DNA of 35,207 nt from Bdellovibrionales bacterium (GTDB taxonomy: Bacteria; Bdellovibrionota; Bdellovibrionia; Bdellovibrionales; UBA1609). The notes under the pieces are model-generated. The model searched no databases, had not been told where the DNA came from, and saw nothing but the letters and a program-made list of their open reading frames with translations. Made by a program: the position numbers and the translations under genes. The DNA is taken from NCBI GenBank assembly GCA_013216195.1, contig JABSOQ010000023.1, positions 1-35,207 of the forward strand. The letters are read 5' to 3'. Every line of letters begins with the position of its first letter. Position 1 is the stretch's first letter. This document shows positions 31,174 to 35,051 of the stretch, piece after piece.

Positions 31174-32430
31174 ATGCTGAGCCAAAGAGTGGTCAAATTT
31201 GCTTTGATGCTTGACCAGCACCGCAGCAGCAAAAAAGAGACTGAGTATCTGGCATTAGAGCTTAAAACCAGCTTGGAGCTACTTGTTACCACCCACAAAA
31301 ATCTTAAAAATGGCAACGCCGAACTCGAAATCGACGCTGCATTTACAGACGAGATCGGAGAAGCCTACACAGCTCTAGATCCATCTTTAAAGCGCTTACA
31401 ATCAAGCGCTGAGTGCGTGCTGATGAACTGTGAGACCAAGGATGCAGCACTAGAGAAACTTTTCGCAGAGTCTGAACCTTTCTTGAAAAACATGAACCTC
31501 ATTGTGAAAATGAGTGAGCTGCACTCGAGTAGCCAAGTTGTTTTGCTGTCTCGCCTGGAGATCGGCTTCTATTTGGCAATATTGTTGCTGATGGGCTATG
31601 AGATATTTTTCGTGATGTTTCCGATGAACAAAATGTTAGCTGATCAACTTCGAGACCTAGCTATGCACCGCCAAGCTCTTTATCAAAAGGCACGCATGGC
31701 CTCGATTGGAGAACTGGCTGGCGGTGTTGCTCATGAGGTGAACAACCCACTAGCGATTATCAAAGGCTATCTTATCGCCTTGCAAAAGCACGCCAAGTTC
31801 CTAGAAGATGAAACTTTCCGCCATGGTCTTTCTAAAATCGAGTCTGCTAGGGAAAGAATCACTGGTATCATCGCCGGCATGAAAGCCTTCTCTCGTCCTG
31901 AGCAAGGCCGACCGTCTCAATTGAACTTAGCTGAAACTGTAGAGGAGTCTGTGAAAATCATTAGAGGTCTTTTCGAATCAGAAGGCCAAAACTTTGTCTT
32001 CACCGTTGACGAAAGCGCCAAAGGTGCATTCATCACCGCCGACAAAAGTAAATTTCAGCAAGCACTTGTGAACGTGTTGACGAATGCCAAACAAGCCAAC
32101 GATGACAAAAATGGCCGCAAGATCAGCATTCAACTTGAGTATGCCGATGATGTCGCTCAGATCAGGGTCCGAGATGAAGGCCCTGGTGTTTCGAGTGATA
32201 TTTCTCAAAGAATTTTTGACCCCTTCTTCACAACAAGAGCTGGTCAGCATGCTGTGGGCATGGGGCTCGCTATCGTCTACAGCTTCGTAAATGAAATGGG
32301 TGGAACGCTTAACTTCAGTAACAAGCAGCCAGGAGCTGAATTCGTCATGCAACTGCCCGCCTCGGCCGTTGATGCCAAGAAGGCTTCCTCAGAGAGGACC
32401 ACAAGTTCTCCGCAAGACTTAGCCTCATAA
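31174..32430 (+). CDS. sensor histidine kinase with PilJ-type (type IV pili methyl-accepting) sensor region
   Basis: Sensor '(VINLAGRQR)MLSQRVVKFALML', H-box 'GELAGGVAHEVNNPLAIIKGYL', N-box 'NVLTNAKQANDD', 'VRDEGPGVSSDISQRIFDPFFTTR', 'GMGLAIVYSFV'. Confidence 0.9.
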   Translation: MLSQRVVKFALMLDQHRSSKKETEYLALELKTSLELLVTTHKNLKNGNAELEIDAAFTDEIGEAYTALDPSLKRLQSSAECVLMNCETKDAALEKLFAESEPFLKNMNLIVKMSELHSSSQVVLLSRLEIGFYLAILLLMGYEIFFVMFPMNKMLADQLRDLAMHRQALYQKARMASIGELAGGVAHEVNNPLAIIKGYLIALQKHAKFLEDETFRHGLSKIESARERITGIIAGMKAFSRPEQGRPSQLNLAETVEESVKIIRGLFESEGQNFVFTVDESAKGAFITADKSKFQQALVNVLTNAKQANDDKNGRKISIQLEYADDVAQIRVRDEGPGVSSDISQRIFDPFFTTRAGQHAVGMGLAIVYSFVNEMGGTLNFSNKQPGAEFVMQLPASAVDAKKASSERTTSSPQDLAS

Positions 32431-32586: not shown

Positions 32587-33480
32587 TCAATGATCGTGGG
32601 AGTGCCCACGCTCTAATGACCCATGCGAGTCATGCGAGTGGTTTGGGTAGCTGTTAAGAATTTCACCCGTACTGGCGCTTACCAACAGCGTAAAAGACTC
32701 AGCCTTTGAGATTTGGGTCACCAAATGCCAGGCCAGATCAAATTCTCCGTCAGTTTTAGCGAAGATAATCGGTTCGTTCACCATGGGCACAACTCGAAAG
32801 ACACCCTGCTCTTGGTAAGGAGCTCGAGCGATATTTGTGGCCTCCGCAAGATTGTATTTTATAGTGACATTAAAATCCTCGGGTACTTTTTGCAGTTGAT
32901 TCACAATCATATAAACCGACTGATCTTCTTTTTTGACCTGAAGTCTGACATAAGAGTCATAGACCTGATACCCGTGGCTTTGCTGTTCAAATTGAAAGGG
33001 CTGGGTAAGGCTCGTGCCTTTACTGTTTTTGCCCTCTTGCACAAGAGCACCTTCGGGCAGACCATAGGCACTCGCAAACTCGCTAGCCAAGTCAAAGGCT
33101 GCCTTACGGCTAAGATCAGACAGAGGGATATTCGGCCCCAATACCGCTCGGCTACCCTCAGGAGTTTGCATAACTTTGAACGGACTCATTGCTTTTTCAT
33201 TAAGCCAACTCATGTAAGCTTCGTTGTCTTCAATCGCCTGGGGCATACGCTCTTTTTTCGTAGCGTTCGATGCCAGGTCTTTCGATTCTGTGGTGCTATC
33301 CTTCACTACAACGTCTGATGCCTCAGCTGAGCTCTTTTTCTGGTTCTCATATTTGTGTTCCTTAGATGCTTGAGACCTTTTCTTAGCTTGATCTGAATCA
33401 GATGAGAGAAGACTCCAGGCAATCGCAACAAAAGCTACAGCCGCAAGTATCCAAATGTAGTTTTTTAAAGATTTGCTCAT
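32587..33480 (-). CDS. stand-alone thermolysin-type propeptide-like (FTP/PepSY) membrane-anchored protein with His-rich C-terminus
   Basis: N-terminal TM anchor; 'FQFEQQSHGYQVYDSYVRLQVKKEDQSVYMIVNQLQKV' FTP-like, 'LAWHLVTQISKAESFTLLVSASTGEILNSY' PepSY-like; no HEXXH; tail HSHDSHGSLERGHSHDH. Confidence 0.75.
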   Translation of the reverse strand: MSKSLKNYIWILAAVAFVAIAWSLLSSDSDQAKKRSQASKEHKYENQKKSSAEASDVVVKDSTTESKDLASNATKKERMPQAIEDNEAYMSWLNEKAMSPFKVMQTPEGSRAVLGPNIPLSDLSRKAAFDLASEFASAYGLPEGALVQEGKNSKGTSLTQPFQFEQQSHGYQVYDSYVRLQVKKEDQSVYMIVNQLQKVPEDFNVTIKYNLAEATNIARAPYQEQGVFRVVPMVNEPIIFAKTDGEFDLAWHLVTQISKAESFTLLVSASTGEILNSYPNHSHDSHGSLERGHSHDH

Positions 33481-34757
33481 TTCATTGTTATCGGCTCAAT
33501 GCCACGAGCAGAAAAGGCATTTCGCAACCTAGCCGAATGTCGAGAGCCAAACAGATTTTGATCGATGGTTAAAATCTTATCGAGTGCGGTTCGAAAGGTG
33601 TCGACGCTGTTGATGGGGCTCAAGTGCTCGATAAACAACTGCTCTAGCTCCTTTTCCTGCCCTGCCGCTTTAGCGTCTAGATAGGCCTCCCACCAAGCAG
33701 AGGTGTAGGCTAAGGCTAATGTGTAAAAATGGCCGTTAGCATTGAAACCAAACGTGCCAGGGCGCTCAAATAGAAAATCAATATCAGGCGCTCCAACGGC
33801 AGCTGGGTTTCGTGGCAAGTTCATCTGCCCGAAAGATCCAATTAAATCGTTGGATCTTACATTGAGCATACCCGGGCTGTTTTGAAACATGAGTGCTGAG
33901 TGAAAATCGGCTTGTGCCTCATTGATGGCTCCAGTGCAGCCCTCTGCCTGGTTACAGCAGCGAGTTCCTGCACACTCTCTATGAGTCGAGTTACTTTGCC
34001 TGTTCATATTGAGGTCTGATGCATAAGCAGCCACGGCATGACCGAACTCATGCACAACCACTTCACCCATCAGGGCTACCTCATGCGGGTTTCCAAAAGA
34101 GTTATTGAAGAATCCAAGCCTCAACGAAAAATCGAAGGGGCTAAAACTTCCATTGTTAAAACTGCCATCAAAGGCCTCTACCGTTAGCCCCTGACCTTGA
34201 GCAGGAGACCCACCGTTAGATTCGAAATATTCATTGGTAGCCATCAACCAGTAGTAGGCCGAGACTTGGCTCAAATGCTTATCTGGGTCGTTACCTTGGT
34301 ACAAATACTTGAAGTCACCAGCTGGCGCTCTCCCTGTTCGAGAAGCCCCGGCATTCAAAACGCGAATAGTTGAGTTCTGCAAAAAACCTGTGCTGTCTAA
34401 ATCGTCAATCTTAACGCCGAAGGTCTGGAGATCCGTGAGGTCAGAAGTGTAACTGTACCGAGTCATCTGACCGCCATTAGCCTCTACCACGTTTTTAAAA
34501 AACAGACAGGCATCGAACTCAGGATCTTCCAAACAATCAAGACCTCGAGCAGGTGGAATCACGGTGTTGTCATCTCGGTTGCCAGACCCATCATTGTTTG
34601 AGCCTGAAGAGGCGCTATTCACTTGTGCCGGGGAGCCAATACCGTTACCGGTTAGGCCACTAACACCTTTGCCAATCTCGTTCACAAGACCGCTTTGACA
34701 GTTCTGAAATAAAAAAATCAAAGGTATGACAAAGAGGATTGGGATCAATTTCTTCAA
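33477..34757 (-). CDS. thermolysin-like (gluzincin, M4/M36-type) zinc metallopeptidase lipoprotein without its own propeptide
   Basis: Lipobox 'IFLFQNC'; 'EVVVHEFGHAVAAYASDLN' (HEXXH) and 'GAINEAQADFHSALMF' (cf. thermolysin GALNExxSD); 'GHFYTLALAYTSAWWEAYLDA' in the C-terminal region. Confidence 0.75.
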   Translation of the reverse strand: MKKLIPILFVIPLIFLFQNCQSGLVNEIGKGVSGLTGNGIGSPAQVNSASSGSNNDGSGNRDDNTVIPPARGLDCLEDPEFDACLFFKNVVEANGGQMTRYSYTSDLTDLQTFGVKIDDLDSTGFLQNSTIRVLNAGASRTGRAPAGDFKYLYQGNDPDKHLSQVSAYYWLMATNEYFESNGGSPAQGQGLTVEAFDGSFNNGSFSPFDFSLRLGFFNNSFGNPHEVALMGEVVVHEFGHAVAAYASDLNMNRQSNSTHRECAGTRCCNQAEGCTGAINEAQADFHSALMFQNSPGMLNVRSNDLIGSFGQMNLPRNPAAVGAPDIDFLFERPGTFGFNANGHFYTLALAYTSAWWEAYLDAKAAGQEKELEQLFIEHLSPINSVDTFRTALDKILTIDQNLFGSRHSARLRNAFSARGIEPITMK

Positions 34758-35051
34758 GGCGCCCCCTTGTTTGTTCAGTGATTCTCTCCCTTTATTCTAA
34801 AAACTCCTCCTCAAACTGCCAAATTTCTAACAGTCTCAGTCTCACAATGAGACACTGTAAATAACTTTAACGGTGATGGATGGCTTGCGAGACTCTGGCT
34901 CTGCAACTATTCGGTGCATAACTACCGATAAGGTGAGACGGAGCAATCCAGCTGCTAGGGCGGCAAAGAATCTAGTATCCCTCCTGCAAACTAGAGAAGT
35001 TTGGCAAAAAATGCTTAAAGCCTAGGCAGTTACCTGGCCGATAATCTTAAT

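Follow-up and report, generated by a model that had tools for sequence, protein, structure and literature searches.

Must the propeptide of a thermolysin-like protease belong to the same chain as the enzyme, or can a neighboring gene supply it? The propeptides of M4 and M36 peptidases assist folding and inhibit the enzyme, and they are normally discussed as same-chain parts that are removed by self-cleavage. A locus in the 4.1 Mb draft genome of a Bdellovibrionales bacterium raises this question. We analyzed a stretch of 35,207 nucleotides from this genome (contig JABSOQ010000023.1, hereafter the window), in which a gene pair lying 450 bp from the contig end had been predicted to encode a metallopeptidase lipoprotein and, separately, its propeptide. 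The pair has the following features.

32587..32631, minus strand: C-terminal extension of the partner, DSHGSLERGHSHDH, and stop codon; lies beyond the +8 His of NSYPNHSH and is specific to the window
32587..33480, minus strand: predicted membrane-anchored, stand-alone FTP/PepSY propeptide (the partner), from the ORF, a family profile and a low-confidence model
33477..33480, minus strand: ATGA stop/start overlap of the protease and partner genes, from the sequence
33477..34757, minus strand: predicted M36/M4-like (gluzincin) zinc metallopeptidase lipoprotein lacking a cis propeptide, from the ORF and its motifs
34794..34822, minus strand: promoter-like site TTGGCA-17-TAGAAT upstream of the gene pair

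We favor, with a probability of about 70%, the reading that these two genes form one unit, in which a separately made, inner-membrane-anchored propeptide would act in trans on an M36-like protease lipoprotein, chaperoning its folding and inhibiting it. Promoter-like sites in the region are no more numerous than expected by chance. Judged by eye, the gene converging on the pair (window 31174-32430, plus strand) encodes a sensor histidine kinase.

The window protease and its family

The protease ORF (34757-33477) encodes 426 amino acids from a TTG start that is directly preceded by AAGGGGG. Its N-terminus is a hydrophobic stretch running up to a lipobox-like FQNC, a form that recurs in many relatives, and a low-complexity linker of about 55 residues separates this lipobox from the first of four conserved cysteines (75, 84, 268 and 274). 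We infer from these features that the protein is a membrane-associated lipoprotein. The window protease carries the gluzincin signature of HExxH and a downstream glutamate in an NExxxD-type motif, with HEFGH at residues 236-240 and NEAQAD at 279-284, within GAINEAQADF. Sequence inspection and a search with the partner profile identified no cis FTP/PepSY pro-region at its N-terminus, where only the linker is found. Across protease ORFs, the partner profile matched none except true cis enzymes. The lipoprotein, its two motifs and its missing pro-region were thus as originally described, and so was the lack of a normal cis propeptide.

Searches of Pfam, NCBIfam and the PDB with each window protein singly gave nothing significant, so we used family profiles. 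For the protease alone, Pfam M36 scored 14.8 bits against a cut-off of 23.3. The window protein as a query found no match in the genome contigs; an alignment of relatives as a query found three loci in Bdellovibrionales/Bdellovibrionia MAGs. A nine-row profile of the protease family, searched against the whole PDB, matched only four fungalysin (M36) sequences at significance (best 7qp3, E 7.3e-11). Pfam M36 matched five of the nine family members at E<=0.01, with a best value of 5e-8. These PDB and Pfam matches suggest that the family is a distantly branching gluzincin of the M36/M4 type.

The third motif of the window protease departs from that of its relatives. It reads NGHFY (NGHFYTLALAY) where relatives have (G)EIH, which places a tyrosine at the position equivalent to His231. 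In thermolysin, His231 stabilizes the transition state. Among complete members with an intact HExxH, the window protease alone lacks His at this motif; all others keep it. Because of this substitution the activity of the window enzyme is uncertain: it could be low or absent, or a nearby histidine may substitute.

The partner as a predicted FTP/PepSY propeptide

The partner ORF (33480-32587) starts with ATG and encodes 297 amino acids. One N-terminal transmembrane segment is followed by a charged low-complexity linker to about residue 85, a propeptide-like domain at about residues 95-283 and a His-rich tail; the window partner has no catalytic domain. The 4 bp overlap, the separate anchor and the missing catalytic domain were all found as first reported. 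The predicted topology is a single-segment anchor with an extracytoplasmic domain.

In the PDB, the partner-family profile had two significant matches. It matched the propeptide of pro-thermolysin (5a3y, residues 88-219) with an E value of 2.6e-6, or 5.5e-8 when built from 19 rows, and the alignment runs through the C-terminal end of that propeptide. The propeptide chain of vibriolysin MCP-02 (3nqy) was matched at 7.8e-4 with 11 rows and 0.045 with 19. The 19-row profile also matched ubiquitin, which we attribute to chance, as only 36 residues were covered. Among the 144 class genomes, the profile found the cis propeptide of a 714-residue M36-like protein (G014, E 2.4e-8), and it also matched the cis propeptide of an M4 enzyme in G048 whose domains are FTP, M4 and M4_C. 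A match in G097 was dropped, as it covered the transmembrane region only. The stand-alone partners of three genomes (G141, G142 and G143) exceed the curated cut-off of Pfam FTP (PF07504), with 34-38 bits against 21. Pfam PepSY (PF03413) matched three of 19 relatives below its cut-off (best E 0.0016) and gave no match to the window partner, which falls below every Pfam cut-off, FTP included. The proposed resemblance to an FTP+PepSY prodomain therefore holds for the family, through its profiles and the FTP scores of sister genes, but not for the window protein taken alone. No SRPBCC (CpaB) or lipase-chaperone (Lif) domain was matched above cut-off in the partner by Pfam or NCBIfam.

The available alignments were shallow, which limited structure prediction: AlphaFold2 runs on four-row alignments gave poor models, with pLDDT values of 50 and 38. 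The best Foldseek matches of the partner model (pLDDT 50) were the C-terminal domain of YpeB, in first place, the MCP-02 propeptide, the fungalysin propeptide 4k90_B and a putative lipoprotein (4exr), none at E<=0.001. These matches weakly suggest a propeptide fold. The top chains are PepSY or propeptide structures, the significant PDB matches of the profile are M4 propeptides and sister genes pass the FTP threshold, which together bear out the predicted fold.

The YpeB match also fits a different role, in which a PepSY-type partner would serve as a general anchor, localization or stability factor, as YpeB does for its hydrolase, and would make no contact with the active site. PepSY domains also occur outside peptidase propeptides. 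Against this, the sequence profiles indicate M4 propeptides, and the C-terminal segment with its His/Tyr/Phe at position +8 (see below) is conserved. We regard a general anchoring role as improbable. By the profile matches of its family, the partner is instead predicted to be a stand-alone, anchored FTP/PepSY propeptide.

The end of the partner chain

We compared chain ends with the conserved GxIL motif in the final strand as the reference point. Among 18 complete class partners, 11 end exactly eight residues past GxIL, and 10 have His, Tyr or Phe at +8, compared with a background of 9%. The autoprocessed MCP-02 propeptide chain in the PDB likewise ends eight residues past the same motif, with His. 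Since the chains end where this processed propeptide ends, most partner genes specify a propeptide in its cleaved form. In the sister partner from G002, His at +8 is followed by three further residues, and in the window partner by a 14-residue His-rich extension.

The His-rich tail had been proposed to handle zinc. The tail is present in the window partner, but it is not conserved, and most relatives lack such a tail, so conservation lends the zinc role no support. The idea that this tail lets the partner supply the protease with zinc, or buffer it, would agree with the tail's composition and with the His clusters (at least four in 12 residues) in four of the 67 ORFs scanned, which were partners or downstream genes. 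Given the absence of the tail from most relatives, we consider zinc delivery very improbable. Three distant short partners (L149, L165 and L178) contain His-rich clusters positioned differently than in the window protein.

Pairing across genomes

We searched 144 genomes of the class with the protease and partner profiles. Proteases with an intact HExxH are encoded by 19 genes in 18 genomes, and all 18 also contain a partner gene. By contrast, the partner is present in one (G054) of the 126 genomes that lack an intact protease. This co-occurrence (18/18 vs 1/126) gives a Fisher p of 5e-22, a genome-level value that ignores shared ancestry. For the 19 protease genes, the partner lies immediately downstream with an overlap or short gap in 11 cases, upstream on the same strand in three, on another contig of the draft assembly in three, and in convergent or divergent orientation in one case each. 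In G142, the partner is upstream of a protease gene that is truncated by the contig end. Because the pairing persists through these rearrangements, it is better evidence of a functional link than a frozen operon would be. The G054 gene is an orphan partner-type gene (L081) in an assembly with no protease. G049 has two partner-type genes (L033/L092 and L039/L077) away from its single protease, which lies at a contig end.

Outside the class set we found 49 further pairs, elsewhere in the phylum and class, in searches that reached one phylum. Together with the 18 of 18 class genomes, they establish the co-conservation that the original prediction called for. Six extra proteases have an anchored FTP/PepSY-like partner directly downstream (G302, G304, G219, G326, G338 and, from the same taxonomic order, G071). 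The G326 protease (L139:2014-5526) has 1170 residues, with a long Cys-rich N-terminal region ahead of the catalytic domain. A family that we designate f12 comprises 43 proteases, mostly of 775-910 residues and mostly lipoprotein-like, each followed by a protein of 150-220 residues with an N-terminal transmembrane segment and a PepSY-like C-terminus. The two genes are usually separated by at most 25 bp, and by 520 bp in one case. The short f12 partners match Pfam PepSY weakly (best E 0.05). In a profile-profile comparison, their C-termini matched the class family with P 2.8e-4 over 67 columns, compared with at least 0.25 for decoys. His, Tyr or Phe occupies +8 in 14 of 24 short f12 partners, whose chains extend further. 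Taken together, the weak PepSY match, the profile-profile result and a fitting pattern of Trp at +3 and His/Tyr/Phe at +8 make it probable that these short partners are homologous to the class family. Single-chain enzymes with cis propeptides also occur in the phylum (G362, G162, G014 and G048).

The arrangement in the window could also have arisen trivially, either from chance neighbors or from a frameshift that split a normal pre-pro-protease gene. The 4 bp overlap of genes in different frames is what such a split might leave. However, the partner gene possesses a start codon and a transmembrane segment of its own and usually comes after the protease rather than before it, and the arrangement recurs in dozens of genomes in several gene orders. 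A trivial origin is therefore extremely improbable.

Partner genes are absent where catalysis has been lost. We identified 18 homologs without HExxH, and the downstream glutamate is also lost in all of those aligned. No partner lies beside these dead homologs, and genomes with only the dead form have no partner anywhere. A tree of 16 dead homologs placed them in one clade with 100% bootstrap support, so the loss of catalysis together with the absence of the partner counts as a single event.

Comparison with known systems

We compared the pair with systems that share its parts or its layout. The zymogens of M36 fungalysins and M4 thermolysins (MCP-02, 3nqy/3nqz; pro-thermolysin, 5a3y; Aspergillus Mep, 4k90) have homologous propeptide and catalytic domains and the same HExxH and downstream glutamate, and the partner ends where the MCP-02 propeptide ends. 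These zymogens are single chains with an N-terminal propeptide, whereas here there are two genes, usually with the protease first, and both products are predicted to be membrane-associated. The closest functional parallel is CpaA-CpaB of Acinetobacter, in which a metallopeptidase gene is immediately followed by a gene for a periplasmic-domain protein with a single N-terminal transmembrane segment, which was shown to be a dedicated chaperone for secretion of the protease (PMC4713064). Unlike the window partner, CpaB has a predicted SRPBCC domain and not a propeptide; CpaA, for its part, is exported by type II secretion and belongs to a different family. The NCBIfam CpaB model reached the window partner at E 0.029, far below its cut-off, and over the transmembrane segment and linker.

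The lipase foldases Lif/LipB are membrane-anchored steric chaperones that do the work of a propeptide in trans, which is the role we propose for the partner. They differ from the pair in fold and in having a lipase as client. Lif/LipB have been compared to propeptides (PMC3352829) and treated alongside CpaB (PMC4713064). The partner has the foldase-type layout, a single N-terminal transmembrane segment and an extracytoplasmic domain with the client gene adjacent, according to its predicted topology.

The closest protease-inhibitor operon is that of emfourin and protealysin, an M4 protease described as intracellular (PMC9505478). This operon, in which an inhibitor is encoded beside an M4 enzyme (PMC9505478), is the precedent for a partner that acts as inhibitor only, in an immunity-like manner, and is dispensable for folding. 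The C-terminus of the partner also appears positioned to occupy the active site. The partner is nevertheless a homolog of propeptides, which are established as folding aids, and the mature enzymes have no cis propeptide to do the folding job. An anchor in the producer's own membrane fits a folding role at least equally well. An inhibitor-only partner thus seems unlikely to us. Emfourin is not known to derive from a propeptide, and protealysin retains a short cis propeptide.

Proposed mechanism

The action of the partner in trans as chaperone and inhibitor, as inferred in the original prediction, is supported in that propeptide homology, the lack of a cis propeptide and co-conservation were all borne out. 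Under our preferred reading of a chaperone and inhibitor in one, the protease would be exported, and the anchored FTP/PepSY domain would support its folding in the periplasm. With its C-terminal segment in the active-site cleft, in the manner of a cleaved propeptide, the partner would prevent activity within the cell. Release of the lipoprotein from the inner membrane would end its contact with the anchored inhibitor and so start activity.

A broader generalization is possible but falls somewhat short of even odds. Bdellovibrionota might, across the phylum, use zymogen-less M36-like lipoprotein proteases under the control of membrane-tethered trans propeptides, with activation by leaving the membrane and not by cleavage, possibly as self-protection in predation. 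Such a scheme suggests how predation-associated bacteria could bear protein-digesting surface enzymes without self-damage. With a conserved natural split, genetics could take apart the chaperone and inhibitor functions directly, and cleavage would not be required. Two protein families that are presently unannotated would also gain a likely function. Our literature search found no description of such a split system and nothing linking Bdellovibrio to fungalysin; Bdellovibrio and PepSY came up together only for another superfamily, judged by title.

Neighbors of the catalytically dead homologs

The dead M36-like lipoproteins are found at L004-L017, L020, L023 and L147 (for example, L010:1489-2691). 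Most of the copies we examined adjoin a gene for a subtilase, which matched Pfam S8 at E 2e-50 in both cases checked, and several are also next to a gene for a lipoprotein with HExMHH. A dead M36-like lipoprotein and an S8 subtilase may together form a pseudoenzyme-subtilase system.
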